Origin: an uncultured Porphyromonadaceae bacterium
GTDB taxonomy: Bacteria > Bacteroidota > Bacteroidia > Bacteroidales > Muribaculaceae
Assembly: GCA_947176355.1 (NCBI GenBank)
Contig: CAMWQY010000047.1
Coordinates: 1-12,514, forward strand
Length of the DNA stretch: 12,514 bases
Direction: 5' to 3'
The position numbers were made by a program, and so were the translations under genes. Below are positions 1-8,369 of the stretch, in pieces (positions within the stretch are counted from its first letter, which is position 1; each line of letters starts with the position of its first letter). Under the pieces are notes generated by a model. It saw nothing but the letters and a program-made list of their open reading frames with translations. It made no database searches and had not been told where the DNA came from.

Positions 1-7
1 TCTTCCT

Positions 8-41
8 GTATCGTGGGCTCGGTGATGTGTATAAGAGAAAG
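8..41 (+). other. Residual Nextera read-2 transposon adapter (sequencing artefact)
   Basis: These 34 bases match the Illumina Nextera read-2 adapter, including its mosaic-end sequence, at 31 of 34 positions by my count. The mismatches are at 10, 23 and 39. The orientation is as expected for contamination: the mosaic end (core GATGTGTATAAGAGA) finishes at 41 and the insert begins at 42. Bases 1-7 are therefore also suspect. The apparent ATG at 27 lies inside the adapter and is not a biological start codon. The adapter sequence is quoted from memory of a widely used reagent and was not aligned by software. Confidence 0.92.
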
Positions 42-1187
42 GTGGAGTATCGCCAACCTTATTCACTTTGGCGCAAGATGAATAAATATGGAGATGATTT
101 TGATCATCTCAAATATCGTCATTTCGTGGAAATCGTTTTCAAGAATGAAGAAGGTATTTCCGAAAAAAATCTTGCCCTGAAGATATATTCGCTATTGACC
201 GACCGCTTTAAGGAAAAACCCGGGGGAATTTCCAATTATATCGACAATCCGAAGGAAAATGGTTACCAAAGTTTTCATGTGAAACTCCTTGCAGACTATG
301 GCAGATGGCAAGAAGTACACATCAGCAGTGAGCGCATGGTGACTAATTCTCAATATGGTTTCCTCAGCGACAGTTCGGAAGGTAACATCAAGAGGTGGAT
401 TAATAAGTTCCGGTCAAATCTCAGGGAAATTTCAAAAAATGCTCATGAAGGGGGAAGCACTTTTATTGAAAATGTGGTGTCTTCATTCTATAATGATGAT
501 ATCATGACCTTTACTCCACAAGGAAAACCAATCATTCTTCCCCAAAAGTCTACTGTCCTTGACTTTGCATACGAAGTGCATTCAAAACTTGGCGAAAAAG
601 CAAAATTCGCACGCATCAACGGTCGTCTTGCTTCAATCAAGACAGCTCTGCATCGTGGTGATATTGTAGAAGTCTTTCCGGATGCAGAGTGCCATCCTAC
701 AAGGGATTGGCTCGATGCTACTGTAACTTATAAAGCAAGAAAAGCCATTCGTTCATATCTCTCAAAACTTCCAAAACCCAAATACGATCGTTGCCCTATT
801 TGTATGCCGATGCCGGGTGAGGAGGTGATAGGTTTCCATAATACCGGAGAGCGAATAATGGTTCACAAGCGAGATTGCCCTGAAGTCATCAAAATGTCTT
901 CCCAGCTTGGCGATAATATTGTCAGTGTTGATTTTGAGGCCAACGACACCCTCTATCCTGTAGAAATAGAGGTGGTATGCGTCGATCGTCCGCACATGGT
1001 CATCGACCTTGTAGATTGTATTTCCAACAGTCTCAACCTTTCTATCGGAAGCATCAACACAAAGACTCAGGATAGCATAGCCACGATTCTCATCACATTC
1101 TCCGTGCATAGTTACGACGAACTCCGGATGGTGATGGATCAAATTGCAAATCTCCCTGATATTGACTCTGTCCGCGAGATTATCTGA
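42..1187 (+). CDS. RelA/SpoT-homologue (RSH) protein, 5'-truncated, divergent synthetase domain
   Basis: This is the C-terminal part of a long RSH protein, the family that makes and breaks (p)ppGpp in the stringent response. Residues are numbered from the codon at 27. The remains of the synthetase domain run to about 112 (PYSLWRKM at 11-18, D26, NPKENGYQSFH at 74-84, EVH at 96-98). A TGS domain follows at about 157-220 (FTPQGKPIILP, DFAYEVH, GDIVEVF). Next is a zinc-finger/CC-type region with C256, C259, H280 and C284, and a C-terminal ACT domain at about 312-386. Family members are usually 700 or more residues, so the HD hydrolase domain and the start of the synthetase are missing because the contig begins here. 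Oddly, the loop that carries RxKD in bifunctional enzymes or ExDD in RelA reads GISN (67-70), and the region after EVH lacks the usual IRT. The synthetase may be weak or inactive. The family call is firm; the exact paralogue is not. Confidence 0.93.
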   Translation: MEYRQPYSLWRKMNKYGDDFDHLKYRHFVEIVFKNEEGISEKNLALKIYSLLTDRFKEKPGGISNYIDNPKENGYQSFHVKLLADYGRWQEVHISSERMVTNSQYGFLSDSSEGNIKRWINKFRSNLREISKNAHEGGSTFIENVVSSFYNDDIMTFTPQGKPIILPQKSTVLDFAYEVHSKLGEKAKFARINGRLASIKTALHRGDIVEVFPDAECHPTRDWLDATVTYKARKAIRSYLSKLPKPKYDRCPICMPMPGEEVIGFHNTGERIMVHKRDCPEVIKMSSQLGDNIVSVDFEANDTLYPVEIEVVCVDRPHMVIDLVDCISNSLNLSIGSINTKTQDSIATILITFSVHSYDELRMVMDQIANLPDIDSVREII

Positions 1188-1193
1188 GAAAAA

Positions 1194-1225
1194 TTTGTGT
1201 AATTGAATTTTTTTTAGTAATTTTG
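1194..1225 (+). promoter_or_regulatory. Bacteroidetes-type promoter for rpsF-rpsR-rplI
   Basis: A -33 element TTTG (1194-1197) and a -7 element TAATTTTG (1218-1225) are separated by 20 bp. This matches the Bacteroidetes primary sigma factor consensus TTTG/TAnnTTTG. It lies 7 bases after the stop codon of the upstream RSH gene. Transcription would start around 1230-1233, giving a leader of about 70 nt before rpsF. Confidence 0.8.
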
Positions 1226-1231
1226 TGCCGT

Positions 1232-1266
1232 TTTTGAGACGACTTATTGCTAAGTCGATGTCAAAA
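1232..1266 (+). promoter_or_regulatory. Leader hairpin upstream of rpsF (candidate autoregulatory element)
   Basis: This is a two-part stem. The outer stem TTTTGA (1232-1237) pairs with TCAAAA (1261-1266). An internal loop has GA on one side and ATG on the other. The inner stem CGACTTA (1240-1246) pairs with TAAGTCG (1251-1257) and closes a TTGC loop. It would form the very 5' end of the transcript from the predicted promoter. In many bacteria the S6:S18 complex represses this operon by binding a leader stem with a bulge that imitates its 16S rRNA site. The position fits that role, but I do not see the characteristic CCG in the bulge, so function is inferred from location and shape only. Confidence 0.5.
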
Positions 1267-1299
1267 CAATGATAAATAACCAATTAATTAATCAAACGT

Positions 1300-1683
1300 A
1301 TGAATCGTTACGAAACCGTTTTCATTTTAACTCCCGTTTTGTCTGACGAACAGATGAAGGAAGCGGTAGAAAAATTCAAAGGCGTGTTGACAGCTAATGG
1401 AGCTACAATCGTCAATGAAGAGGAATGGGGTCTCCGCAAGCTCGCTTATCCCATCCAGAAAAAATCAACTGGCTTCTATTGCCTTCTCGAATTTGAAGGC
1501 GCGCCAACTCTCGTAAAGCAGCTCGAAATCGCTTATCGCCGCGATGAGAAAGTGCTCCGTTTCCTCACTTTCCGTCTCGACAAGTATGCAGCTGAATACG
1601 CTGAAAAACGTCGCAATCTGAGAGCAAACAAAGCAAGTGAAACCGCTGCAGCTCCGGCTGAAGCAGAAAACAAGGAGGCATAA
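1300..1683 (+). CDS. rpsF: 30S ribosomal protein bS6
   Basis: bS6 is a small-subunit protein of the platform that binds 16S rRNA as a heterodimer with bS18. The 127-residue product starts with the typical [18 protein letters not shown] and contains the family signature [17 protein letters not shown] (about residues 45-61), which forms one strand of the ferredoxin-like fold, followed by [18 protein letters not shown]. The C-terminus (about 103-127) is a charged, Ala/Glu-rich tail, as in other Bacteroidetes bS6 proteins. It is the first gene of the rpsF-rpsR-rplI operon. The start is the first in-frame ATG after an AT-rich leader without a Shine-Dalgarno sequence, which is normal for the phylum. 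Its last codons overlap the Shine-Dalgarno of rpsR. In Bacteroidetes ribosomes bS6 also helps to hide the anti-Shine-Dalgarno end of 16S rRNA. Confidence 0.98.
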
Positions 1684-1685
1684 TC
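1672..1685 (+). promoter_or_regulatory. Strong Shine-Dalgarno sequence for rpsR
   Basis: AAGGAGG at 1672-1678 is a perfect 7-base complement to the 16S rRNA anti-Shine-Dalgarno CCUCCUU and sits 7 nt before the rpsR ATG (1686). It lies within the last codons of rpsF (Asn-Lys-Glu-Ala). Most other genes in this window have no such motif, recN being the other clear case. Strong Shine-Dalgarno sequences before the genes for bS21 and/or bS18 have been reported in Bacteroidetes and proposed to let these proteins control their own translation. Confidence 0.88.
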
Positions 1686-1952
1686 ATGGCAGCAAACAGC
1701 GAAATCCGTTATCTTACTCCTCTTACAGTAGACACTCGTAAGAAAAAATACTGCCGTTTCAAACGCAGCGGTATCAAATATATCGACTACAAGGATCCTG
1801 AATTCCTCAAAAAGTTCCTCAACGAACAGGGCAAAATCCTCCCACGTCGCATCACCGGCACTTCTCTTAAGTTCCAGCGTCGTGTGGCTCAGGCTGTAAA
1901 GCGTGCTCGCCACCTCGCCCTTCTTCCTTACGTAACTGACTTAATGAAATAA
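1686..1952 (+). CDS. rpsR: 30S ribosomal protein bS18
   Basis: bS18 is a small, basic platform protein of the 30S subunit and partner of bS6. The 88-residue product shows the classic bS18 core: [18 protein letters not shown] (about 20-37), [30 protein letters not shown] (about 53-82). The start follows the rpsF stop by only 2 nt, suggesting translational coupling, and is fixed by the perfect Shine-Dalgarno 7 nt upstream. In the Flavobacterium johnsoniae ribosome structure, bS18 together with bS21 and bS6 occludes the anti-Shine-Dalgarno. Shortage of bS18 could therefore expose the anti-SD and raise translation of this gene. That feedback is a published proposal for the phylum and an inference here. 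Confidence 0.98.
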
Positions 1953-1976
1953 TAACCATTTTAACGAAAGCTATAT

Positions 1977-2432
1977 ATGAAACTCATTCTTAAAGAAAAC
2001 GTAGTCGAATTAGGCTACAAAGACGATGTAGTGGAAGTGAAAGATGGTTATGGACGTAACTATCTCATCCCTCAGGGTAAGGCTGTGATCGCTTCTGACG
2101 CAAACCTCAAAGAACTTCAGGAAAATCTCCGCCAGCGTGCACATAAGATTGCAGCTATTCTTGCTGATGCTCAGGCTCAGGCTGACGCTATCAAGGACGT
2201 GACTCTCACTATCGAAGCTAAGACAGGTCCTAACGGTGTGATCTACGGAAGTGTGGCTGCTGCTCAGATTGCTGATGCATTTGCTAAACTTGGTCACAAT
2301 ATCGACCGTAAGCTCATCTCACTCAAGAACCCAATCAAGGTCATCGGCGACTATGTATGCACTGTGAAATTCCACCGTGACGTCAACGCTGAAGTGCCTG
2401 TTTGTGTTGTGGCTGAAGCAACTGAAGAATAA
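1977..2432 (+). CDS. rplI: 50S ribosomal protein bL9
   Basis: bL9 is a large-subunit protein that binds 23S rRNA near the base of the L1 stalk and helps keep the reading frame. The 151-residue product has the N-terminal signature MKLILKENVVELGYKDDVVEVKDGYGRNYLIPQGKA (about 1-36), then a long connecting helix (about 41-75) rich in Ala, Gln and charged residues, and the C-terminal domain with NGVIYGSVAAAQIADAF (about 86-102) and D/E-rich tail. Length is normal (about 150). It is the last gene of the rpsF-rpsR-rplI operon, 24 nt after rpsR, with no Shine-Dalgarno, and is followed by a strong terminator. Confidence 0.98.
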   Translation: MKLILKENVVELGYKDDVVEVKDGYGRNYLIPQGKAVIASDANLKELQENLRQRAHKIAAILADAQAQADAIKDVTLTIEAKTGPNGVIYGSVAAAQIADAFAKLGHNIDRKLISLKNPIKVIGDYVCTVKFHRDVNAEVPVCVVAEATEE

Positions 2433-2457
2433 TCCAAACAGCTTAGCTGAAAATTAT

Positions 2458-2494
2458 AGTTCCATGCAATCTTCATTGCGTGGAACTTTTTTTT
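2458..2494 (+). terminator. Rho-independent terminator after rplI
   Basis: A 13-bp stem (2458-2470 with 2475-2487, one G·U pair) closes a CTTC loop and runs into an 8-base T tract (2487-2494). This is a textbook intrinsic terminator for the ribosomal protein operon. The T tract also supplies part of the -33 element of the next promoter. Confidence 0.95.
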
Positions 2495-2523
2495 GCATAT
2501 ACCATTTTTTTTTGTTACCTTTG
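2492..2523 (+). promoter_or_regulatory. Bacteroidetes-type promoter for the dnaN operon
   Basis: A -33 TTTG (2492-2495) and a -7 TACCTTTG (2516-2523) are 20 bp apart, as in the other two promoters of this window. The -33 element overlaps the end of the upstream terminator. Transcription would start near 2530, leaving a leader of about 70 nt, AT-rich and without a Shine-Dalgarno, before dnaN. Confidence 0.8.
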
Positions 2524-2602
2524 TGTTTTAAATACGTCTCTTTTCAAATATAATTGAGGGTTTAAATTAACTTGTTGAAAAATAAAATAATAGTCTAAAT
2601 AT

Positions 2603-3727
2603 ATGAAATTTAACGTTCACGGAAAGACTCTTCAGCAGCAACTTGCGGCTGTCAGCAAGGTGGTAAATGCAAAAAATGCACTTTCCATCCTCGACAATTT
2701 TCTTCTTGAAGTAAAAGAAGATTCTCTCTACATTACCGGCTCTGACCAAGAGACTGTGATGACTGCTAAGCTTGAAATAACTAATCAGGGACTCGACGGC
2801 AAAATTGCCATCAATGCAAAGCGCCTCATGGATGTAGTGAAGGAAGTGTCGAATTTTCCCCTCACATTTGAAATTGAAGAGACAAACTGCTCTGTCGATC
2901 TTCTCTTCCCGGGCGGACACTTCCAATTTATGGGTGTAGATGCAGCAGAATATCCTCAGAACTTTGACACTGACGATCTTTCAATTGAAATGACTATTCC
3001 CACCGAGGTGATACAGCGAGGCCTCGATTTCACTCTCTTTGCGATAAGCACTGAGTCTATACGTCCGATGATGACCGGTGTCTATTGGGATTTTCACGAA
3101 AACGACATCACTTTTGTAGGCTCTGACACACATAAGCTCGTACGCTATATAAACACAAGCTTTCAGCCCAATCGCGAGACATCTTTTATCTTGCCGGGAA
3201 AACCTGCAGCTATCCTGCGTTCGCTCATTGGCAAAGATACTGAAAGTGTAAAGATACGCAAAGATGAAAAGAGTGCCATTTTTGCTTTCGGTGATTTCCG
3301 TCTCGGCTGCCGCTTCGTTAAGGGCAATTATCCTAATTACAACCGTGTGATTCCAATTGATAACCCAAATGAGATGACTGTAGACCGCACTGCACTCGCG
3401 GCTGCGATGCGAAGGGTTTCTCTCTTTGCGAGCAAGGCTTCAAGTCTGGTGAAGATGTCGATGGATGAAAACAATGTATCTCTTCAATCGCAAGACCTCG
3501 ATTATTCCACGCGTGCAGAAGAACGTATCTCTTGTTCCTACGAAGGAACTCCTCTTTCGATTGGATTCAACAGTGTATATATGCTTGAGGTACTCAATAA
3601 TCTCCCCGGTGATTCAATCGTAGTAAAACTGTCTGATCCCGGTCGTCCAGGTTTGTTCTTGCCTTTTGAGCAGAAGGAAAATGAGAATGTCGTGATGCTT
3701 CAGATGCCGATGCAAGTAATTGAATAA
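2603..3727 (+). CDS. dnaN: DNA polymerase III subunit beta (sliding clamp)
   Basis: The beta clamp is a ring-shaped dimer that encircles DNA and tethers the replicative polymerase and repair enzymes. The 374-residue product matches the usual length (about 366-375). It has the three-fold repeated clamp architecture: domain 1 from MKFNVHGKTLQQQLAAVSKVV with NALSILDNFLLEV, domain 2 from about 130 with ISTESIRPMMTGVYWDF and GSDTHKLVRY, and domain 3 from about 250 with the C-terminal NVVMLQMPMQVIE. The first ATG after the promoter leader is used. It is the first gene of a six-gene run (exonuclease, coaBC, porD-like, recN, rlmB). Sharing an operon with an exonuclease and recN fits a DNA metabolism theme. 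No truncation or frameshift is seen. Confidence 0.98.
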   Translation: MKFNVHGKTLQQQLAAVSKVVNAKNALSILDNFLLEVKEDSLYITGSDQETVMTAKLEITNQGLDGKIAINAKRLMDVVKEVSNFPLTFEIEETNCSVDLLFPGGHFQFMGVDAAEYPQNFDTDDLSIEMTIPTEVIQRGLDFTLFAISTESIRPMMTGVYWDFHENDITFVGSDTHKLVRYINTSFQPNRETSFILPGKPAAILRSLIGKDTESVKIRKDEKSAIFAFGDFRLGCRFVKGNYPNYNRVIPIDNPNEMTVDRTALAAAMRRVSLFASKASSLVKMSMDENNVSLQSQDLDYSTRAEERISCSYEGTPLSIGFNSVYMLEVLNNLPGDSIVVKLSDPGRPGLFLPFEQKENENVVMLQMPMQVIE

Positions 3728-6680: not shown

Positions 6681-6695
6681 AGGAGGAAACCAATC
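6681..6695 (+). promoter_or_regulatory. Shine-Dalgarno-like sequence before recN
   Basis: AGGAGG at 6681-6686 lies 9 nt before the recN ATG (6696), in the 21-nt gap after the PorD-like gene. It is complementary to six bases of the anti-Shine-Dalgarno. It is the second clear such motif in a window where most genes lack one, and it supports the chosen recN start. Whether Bacteroidetes ribosomes use it is uncertain. Confidence 0.6.
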
Positions 6696-8369
6696 ATGAT
6701 CAGAAATCTTTCAATCATCAACTATGCGCTTATTGACAAAGTTGAGCTCACTTTAAGAGATGGGCTGACTATCTTGACTGGTGAGACCGGTGCCGGTAAA
6801 TCTGTCATGATGGGGGCGATTTCCCTTTTAATGGGCGAGCGTGTCGACTCTAAAGTTCTTGCCAACCGTGAGGGAAAGGCTGTGATAGAGGGCGTTTTTG
6901 ACTCTGTGGCTTCTTCTCTTAAAGAAATTTTTGATGCCAACGACTTAGATTGGAACGACGGTCAGATCATAGTCCGAAGAGAGATTGCCGCTAACGGTCG
7001 CAGTCGTGCTTTCATCAACGACACTCCGGTCACTCTTCCTCTTCTATCAGAAGTGGCGGGAGGACTCGTTGATATTCATTCCCAACACTCCAACCGTCTG
7101 CTCTCAAAGCCTGATTATCAATTGAGCATTATTGATTCGATTGCCGACAATGCTGAGTTGCTTGCAGACTATAAGAATGATTTCTCGAAATTCGTGGGAT
7201 TGAGAAATAAAATCAAAAAACTTCGCGACTCAATGGAACGCAATCGCGAAAACAGAGAGTTGCGGGCTTTTCAACTCGAGCAATTGACGAAGATTAATCC
7301 GAAGAAAGGGGAGTTGGAAGAAGTGGAAAAGGAATATGATATCCTTTCTGATGCCGACGACCTTAGAAGCCGTATCGGCCAGGCTGCTTATCTTCTTTCA
7401 ATTTCTGATACTTCTGCATTGAACTTGATAGGAGATGCCGGAGCATCTATCGATGGAATAGACTTTTCTCTTTTTGAAGGACCGGCTGAGCCCGGTCAAC
7501 CTACTCTGATGGAGCGTCTGCAAAATGTCTATATCGAACTTAAGGATATCGGAGACTCCCTTTCCAGAATATCTTCCGGTATTGAATCTGATCCGGTCAG
7601 ACTTGCTAAGGCTGATTCTCGACTTAAGGAACTCTACGAAGCTGTCAAGCGGTTTAAGATGGAAGACTATAATGCCCTTGTCGACTTATATAATTCACTT
7701 AAAAAAGAAAGCAATGTAGGGTCTGATAAGATTGAAGAGCTTAATGCCCTTGAGTCGGAAGCAAGAAAGCTGGGCGATACTTTGAAGGAGAAAGCTGAGA
7801 AGATAAGCATTTCGAGAGCTGCAGCCGCCAAGAAATTTGAGGAGACTCTCACTTCCGATGCTCGGCCGCTTGGACTAAAGAATCTGCGTTTCAGTGTCAA
7901 TATCATAAAGGGAAAACTGACTCCGGATGGTAAGGATACCATAGAGTTTCTTTGTGCCTTCAATAAAAATCAGCCGTTGATGCCGTTGTCGCAAACTGCT
8001 TCAGGAGGCGAGATGGCGCGACTGACACTTTGCATTAAGGCTATAACGGCTAATAAACTGAAGCTCCCAACTGTGATTTTTGATGAAATAGACACGGGCG
8101 TTTCAGGCGACATTGCCGACAGAATGGGCTCCATGATGGCTGACATTGCTTCAGGGATGCAGGTGTTCGCCATTACGCACTTGCCTCAAGTGGCTGTAAA
8201 AGGAAAATCTCATCTTCTCGTCTTTAAGCAAGATGAGGGGGAGCGCACAGTAAGCCATGTGAAGACTCTTGGCTATGATGAGCGTGTAAAAGAAATAGCA
8301 AGAATGCTTTCCGGAAAAGAAATCAATGACGCTGCCCTGACGAATGCCCGGGCTTTATTGGAAGGCTAA
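6696..8369 (+). CDS. recN: DNA repair protein RecN (SMC-like ATPase)
   Basis: RecN is an SMC-family ATPase that acts early in repair of double-strand breaks. The 557-residue product has normal length (about 550-560). The Walker A motif GETGAGKS is at 29-36, the ABC signature ASGGEMAR at 435-442, and Walker B FDEIDTGVSG starts with D463 and E464. The D-loop and switch histidine follow in FAITHLPQVA. Between the two ATPase halves are the two coiled-coil arms (about 165-385), rich in Glu, Lys, Leu and Arg, with a short hinge-like section around 240-270. The N-terminus MIRNLSIINYALIDKVEL is typical. It is preceded by an AGGAGG motif and followed 32 nt later by rlmB. I see no LexA-type operator. 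Its position suggests co-transcription with dnaN and the exonuclease. Confidence 0.97.
   Translation: MIRNLSIINYALIDKVELTLRDGLTILTGETGAGKSVMMGAISLLMGERVDSKVLANREGKAVIEGVFDSVASSLKEIFDANDLDWNDGQIIVRREIAANGRSRAFINDTPVTLPLLSEVAGGLVDIHSQHSNRLLSKPDYQLSIIDSIADNAELLADYKNDFSKFVGLRNKIKKLRDSMERNRENRELRAFQLEQLTKINPKKGELEEVEKEYDILSDADDLRSRIGQAAYLLSISDTSALNLIGDAGASIDGIDFSLFEGPAEPGQPTLMERLQNVYIELKDIGDSLSRISSGIESDPVRLAKADSRLKELYEAVKRFKMEDYNALVDLYNSLKKESNVGSDKIEELNALESEARKLGDTLKEKAEKISISRAAAAKKFEETLTSDARPLGLKNLRFSVNIIKGKLTPDGKDTIEFLCAFNKNQPLMPLSQTASGGEMARLTLCIKAITANKLKLPTVIFDEIDTGVSGDIADRMGSMMADIASGMQVFAITHLPQVAVKGKSHLLVFKQDEGERTVSHVKTLGYDERVKEIARMLSGKEINDAALTNARALLEG

Follow-up and report, generated by a model that had tools for sequence, protein, structure and literature searches.

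Two described systems place a Shine-Dalgarno (SD) element in front of a gene for a protein of the platform pocket (bS6, bS18, bS21), in lineages in which this pocket hides the anti-SD of the 16S rRNA. The first is the autoregulation of bS21, the product of rpsU, in Flavobacterium johnsoniae, which needs an extended SD with an energy below -13 kcal/mol (available excerpts of McNutt et al., 2023, PMC9976891). The same excerpts report that a tuf reporter with the 7-nt SD AGGAGGU yielded more than twofold more product when bS21 was devoid of its C-terminus, and that the loss of the C-terminus had no effect on a reporter with the weak motif AGGA. The second is the SD of rpsR, the gene for bS18, which was described for Bacteroidales, Cytophagales and Sphingobacteriales by Jha et al. 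(2021), a study cited here through excerpts of McNutt et al. (2021, PMC8710568; 2023, PMC9976891). The mode of the SD energy was given there as -11 for rpsR versus -20 for rpsU (PMC9976891), and SDs were also assigned to rplE, rplF, rplI, rplW and further ribosomal protein genes of certain Bacteroidia. In Prevotella bryantii, addition or lengthening of an SD hardly altered the yield in normal cells (Accetto and Avgustin, 2011, PMC3155529, in part), a result that fits an anti-SD that is hidden in complete ribosomes. The initial annotation of the present locus had stated that such SDs had been proposed as sensors, and the rpsR SD together with its self-regulation is indeed in print (PMC9976891); both the SD in Bacteroidales and the regulatory idea are thus already known. 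An experiment on rpsR or a synonymous-site test of its SD was not noticed in the literature searched, which included the available parts of PMC9976891, PMC8710568, PMC3155529 and PMC10783764 and excluded most subscription journals.

The locus described here is part of a window of 12,514 nucleotides, i.e., the whole stretch of DNA that was analyzed, and the features of its rpsF-rpsR-rplI region are on the forward strand. The motif AAGGAGG at 1672-1678 is followed by the 7-nt spacer CATAATC (1679-1685), which contains the rpsF stop codon TAA (1681-1683), and by the ATG of rpsR at 1686-1688. The flanking genes are rpsF (bS6, 1300-1683), rpsR (bS18, 1686-1952) and rplI (bL9, 1977-2432), and Pfam matches were obtained for all three proteins. 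The 3′ end of rpsF reads AAG GAG GCA TAA, and the motif thus encodes Lys-Glu-Ala, the last codons of bS6. The initial annotation had been correct in all these respects: the position of the motif, its double use as coding sequence, and an operon that encodes two of the pocket proteins. Pairing of the motif with the 16S tail was predicted to comprise 7 bp with an energy of -11.2 kcal/mol (ViennaRNA duplexfold). An SD was called at -7 kcal/mol or better, and by this threshold, at a functional distance from the start, the rpsR element is included, while rpsF (+1.0) and rplI (-4.3) are devoid of an SD. The 16S 3′ end was not found in this genome, which is 74% complete; the usual anti-SD is present in G013, the one Muribaculaceae member whose 16S end was read. 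Within the window AAGGAGG occurs twice on the forward and not on the reverse strand, and 2 of 12 gene starts reach the threshold, namely rpsR and the gene at 6696 (-10.2). The latter gene (6696-8369), which we take to be recN, has an AGGAGG at 6681-6686, 9 nt upstream of its ATG and behind the stop codon of a DUF4835 gene; no homologue was found among the relatives' loci that were read. A phage search with the rpsF-rpsR junction yielded no match.

The bare string AAGGAGG near an ATG is not rare, and it is the context that decides: 63 occurrences that precede an ATG by 4-9 nt were counted in the own genome, versus 44 of the reversed control. SDs at gene starts were therefore counted in 400 kb of a congener (G030), with starts approximated as the first ATG of open reading frames of at least 100 amino acids. 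The thresholds of -7, -9 and -11 were reached at 8, 4 and 3 of 299 starts, compared to 25, 10 and 3 of 299 in an upstream mock window, and thus SDs at starts are rarer than in the mock window. As so few starts of the congener and of the window reach -7, the view that SDs are normally not used in this lineage is upheld, and as only four congener starts reach -9, the SD of rpsR is not a chance occurrence.

The occurrence in relatives was analyzed at two levels. The rpsR gene was found in 114 of 119 genomes of the family and in 113 of 119 genomes of the order, 117 of the latter set being from 117 other families. In the family 71 loci were read, including the own, and the start was obtained in 69 of them (not in L007 and L031); in the order 69 loci were read, 67 of which were parsed at first, and L093 and L099 were added only for the rpsR/rpsU pairs. 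The loci were the best-scoring ones plus others picked down the lists, i.e., not a random draw. An SD precedes rpsR at 55 of the 69 family and 45 of the 67 order loci (53/67 and 45/64 where rpsF was also delimited). The conservation in close relatives, the absence of which had been named as grounds for abandoning the idea, therefore applies to the majority and not to all. The 14 losses in the family include all three loci read in genus g21, three of four in g27, two of three in g23, and the congener G113 (-1.5). The other four of the five congeners with a readable rpsR have an SD (-9.6 to -12.5), and no rpsR was obtained from a sixth one, G050. Among 80 named loci, five of which could not be parsed, an rpsR SD was present in 11/11 Muribaculaceae, 2/2 Porphyromonadaceae, 2/2 Prevotellaceae and 0/20 Flavobacteriaceae. 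The nearest two, both with an SD and 86.0 and 87.6% identical over 1.3 and 1.2 kb, were deposited as Muribaculaceae, which places the window in the Bacteroidales. Two further loci, L411 (titled Bacteroides sp.) and L424 (Lachnoclostridium sp.), have an rpsR that resembles those of Muribaculaceae, and may thus be mistitled; L411, which is 76% identical over 1.2 kb, is without an rpsR SD.

SDs are also present in front of other ribosomal protein genes. The starts of the S10-spc operon were scored in 20 family genomes that had been selected for their long contigs, and 48 of the 555 starts reached -7: rplE in 18/20, rplF in 16/20, rplW in 12/20, and the remaining 25 genes in 2/495. A general use of SDs at internal cistrons was rejected, as 46 of the 48 belong to these three genes. 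In the own genome no S10-spc operon was detected. Coding may account for part of the rplE site, which is located within the terminal portion of rplX. In the case of rplI an SD was found in 52/67 order and 29/69 family loci, and it is also present at loci where rpsR has none (e.g., L100, L104, L117). One possible reading, which we hold on the doubtful side, is that the rpsR SD simply helps ribosomes to initiate or re-initiate at a cistron inside the operon, the upstream region of which is fixed by coding, with no sensing of the pocket. It is in agreement with this reading that rpsR SDs go together with tight rpsF-rpsR junctions (gaps of up to 8 nt: 47/55 in the family and 39/45 in the order; longer gaps: 6/12 and 6/19), that the other SD genes found are also internal cistrons, and that no SD was found on rpsF, with which the operon begins, at any of 132 loci. 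However, tightness of the junction is not sufficient for an SD, since none of the 110 S10-spc starts with gaps of up to 8 nt, rplE excluded, has one, and in P. bryantii SDs gave no appreciable rise of the yield (PMC3155529, in part). Moreover, rplE and rplF retain their SDs where rpsR has none, which indicates that the rpsR SD has its own history.

In other bacteria a complex of bS6 and bS18 binds a structured leader of its own mRNA, in which case the SD would be incidental; the gene order rpsF-rpsR suits such a control, but an Rfam search of 1-3600 with a permissive threshold gave three hits, all below the gathering score and none of them credible, so that no leader structure known to Rfam was found upstream of rpsF, and this explanation is very improbable. 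A hairpin that hides the rpsR SD was rejected as a conserved feature. A pairing of GGAG with rpsR codons is predicted in the window (0.97); however, the mean pairing of 100 loci with an SD (0.54) did not exceed that of the synonymous null (0.57; p 0.32), and the fold was no better than that of shuffled sequences (z 0.38).

A synonymous test was applied to unravel the selection on the nucleotides themselves. The last ten rpsF codons were resampled according to the pooled codon usage of rpsF and rpsR, using loci with an rpsF-rpsR gap of up to 8 nt. The SD was present in 47 of 55 family loci, while 20.4 were expected, and in 39 of 45 order loci versus 12.8 expected, with p values of 5e-6 or less that ignore shared ancestry, by which the order sample is less affected. 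The position is equally constrained: at 80 of 98 loci with an SD the GGAG ends, with its last G, 8 or 9 nt upstream of the rpsR start, and at 12 of the 98 (six in the family, six in the order) the motif lies behind the rpsF stop codon, at the usual distance from rpsR. The site therefore tracks rpsR rather than bS6. That bS6 merely happens to end in Lys-Glu, a dipeptide found within the last five residues of 50 of 67 family proteins (4 of these 50 without AAG GAG), has a negligible probability, given that the codon choice (AAG GAG in 46/50 family and 27/35 order cases) far exceeds usage, and given the loci with a motif outside rpsF and the narrow spacing to rpsR. The selection at synonymous sites that the initial annotation had implied was thus verified, and the synonymous excess together with the fixed position identifies the motif as a selected SD element. 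The comparison of sequences argues that its conservation is due to selection on the nucleotides rather than to the bS6 protein, and with high confidence AAGGAGG is a working SD of rpsR. By its energy and spacing, the order of its host and its maintenance by selection it belongs to the rpsR SDs of Bacteroidales.

The rpsR SD might be read best by 30S subunits with a free anti-SD, i.e., those with an incomplete pocket of bS6, bS18 and bS21. Initiation at rpsR would then rise as long as the pocket is unfilled, and would fall once bS18 and bS21 complete it. By analogy with the published work on rpsU, a selected SD with such a feedback on rpsR has, in our view, an even chance of being correct. The compact bS18 circuit that the initial annotation had proposed is plausible, and the selected SD, the scarcity of SDs, and the pocket residue Tyr54 of bS21, which is kept in 38 of 38 genomes of the tree with an SD on rpsR only, speak for it. 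The energy, which does not reach the -13 kcal/mol of bS21 autoregulation, the predicted pairing of the SD with rpsR codons in this window, the repeated losses (14 of 69 in the family, with no replacement seen) and the SDs of comparable or higher predicted strength on rplE, rplF, rplW and rplI speak against a feedback. The products of these four genes do not occlude the anti-SD, and a circuit private to bS18 is therefore not supported; a feedback specific to bS18 appears unlikely. Since other operon-internal ribosomal genes carry SDs of the same class, the feedback would probably be modest and shared, and rplE, rplF, rplW and often rplI should respond to the same pocket-incomplete subunits. In turn, rplE, rplF and rplI offer a ready control set that could separate a circuit specific for bS18 from a general SD regulon. 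If the feedback were true, a ribosome that lacks a platform protein would itself serve as the sensor in a major order of gut bacteria, and the gene under its control would differ from that of the demonstrated Flavobacterium case. Solved ribosome structures, 7jil (F. johnsoniae) and 9i5v among them, contain close bS6, bS18 and bS21 chains, which also speaks for the feedback. The entries 9i5v and 9i5x both hold the bS6 and bS18 closest to those of the window, and a matching bS21 chain is present only in 9i5v, so that a pair of structures, one of them lacking bS21, may be available for this group. A paper with the code 9i5v was not found in the literature search, with most subscription journals outside its scope.

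As had been suggested by the initial annotation, the rpsF-rpsR junction and the rpsU leader were compared across relatives. The junction has an SD at most loci; none of 28 family rpsU leaders reached -7, the strongest being -5.9. In the order both genes were read in 60 genomes (families), including G161 and G188; rpsU was not read in 9 of 69 genomes with an rpsR locus. An SD was present on rpsR only in 35, on rpsU only in 15, on both in one (G126), and on neither in nine, with rpsR of G159 (-6.6) and rpsU of G215 (-6.3) near the threshold. The two SDs are thus nearly exclusive in this sample, an observation that can serve as a lead. In 30 of these 60 genomes the SD of rplE was found in 10/11 genomes of the rpsR type, 12/12 of the rpsU type and 6/6 of the neither type, and that of rplF in 7/10, 8/12 and 4/6, respectively; in G126 rplF is without an SD and the rplE start was unreadable. 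The SDs of rplE and rplF are thus present in all three genome types, irrespective of the switch between rpsR and rpsU. On a tree of four ribosomal proteins (67 rows, 393 columns, bootstrap not settled) 8 changes were counted for the rpsR SD and 3 for the rpsU SD, all 15 rpsU-only genomes fell inside one group of 17, and an independent-pairs test was not significant. The exclusiveness is therefore a pattern with essentially one origin and no proof of a functional replacement. A replacement of lost rpsR SDs was likewise unsupported by these results and by the absence of SDs on rpsF (0/132); the losers that were read, from several lineages, have no SD on rpsU or rpsF. At the class level, 25 pairs from 26 genomes comprised 18 with neither SD, four with rpsU only, two with both and one with rpsR only, scored with only the two tail types of the order, which misjudges lineages that have a different anti-SD. 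From the two cases with both SDs it is evident that the exclusiveness is no rule outside the order.

The rpsU leaders of the clade with an rpsU SD, whose assignment to the order is the label of the search tool, scored -8.5 to -15.5 (better of two tails, with a program other than that of McNutt et al.); according to the available parts of PMC9976891, no Bacteroidales satisfy the rpsU criteria applied there. Leaders of this clade (L270-L296), e.g., AGAAAGAGGTATT, would form a duplex with the 16S tail in which a single base is bulged out. Two types of 16S tails exist in the order, AACACCUCC or AAUACCUCC, and G190 has both, one each on two contigs. An altered anti-SD in the clade, suggested by rpsU leaders that resemble a complement of the tail lacking one base, was rejected where the tail was readable: 29 pattern matches were obtained in 26 of 119 order genomes, 23 were judged to be 16S ends by inspection and 6 were off target, and all 23 contain CCUCC. 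Several leaders of the clade have GGTATT, fitting the U of the 16S tail, but a readable tail is available in only five rpsU-only genomes and the U is also present in the rpsR-SD genomes G142 and G229, and thus the link is weak. A broader scheme, which we consider quite unlikely as a whole, would be that SD control in Bacteroidales usually applies to one pocket gene, namely rpsR in the majority of the sampled families and rpsU in a single clade, with rplE and rplF unchanged; a small SD regulon made up of ribosomal genes inside operons would be driven by pocket-incomplete subunits, and the pocket gene would be its feedback arm.

Compared with the autoregulation of rpsU in F. johnsoniae, the common point is an SD before a pocket-protein gene, here rpsR, in a lineage with a hidden anti-SD. 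However, the rpsU SD is extended (9-13 bp) and the only strong one in most Flavobacteriales, while the SD described here comprises 7 bp, several genes have an SD, and rpsU has none. Its -11.2 kcal/mol stays above the -13 kcal/mol of the rpsU type, a limit that was computed by another program, and in the family the SD of rplE is stronger (median -13.5). The SDs of rplE, rplF, rplI and rplW (McNutt et al., 2023) resemble it in their strength class and in belonging to ribosomal genes, but in contrast to the rpsR product their products form no anti-SD pocket. The closest counterpart is the rpsR SD of Jha et al., with the same gene, order, strength class (about -11) and proposed role; to this otherwise identical system the present analysis adds the synonymous-site test, the position relative to the rpsF stop codon, and the control genes.
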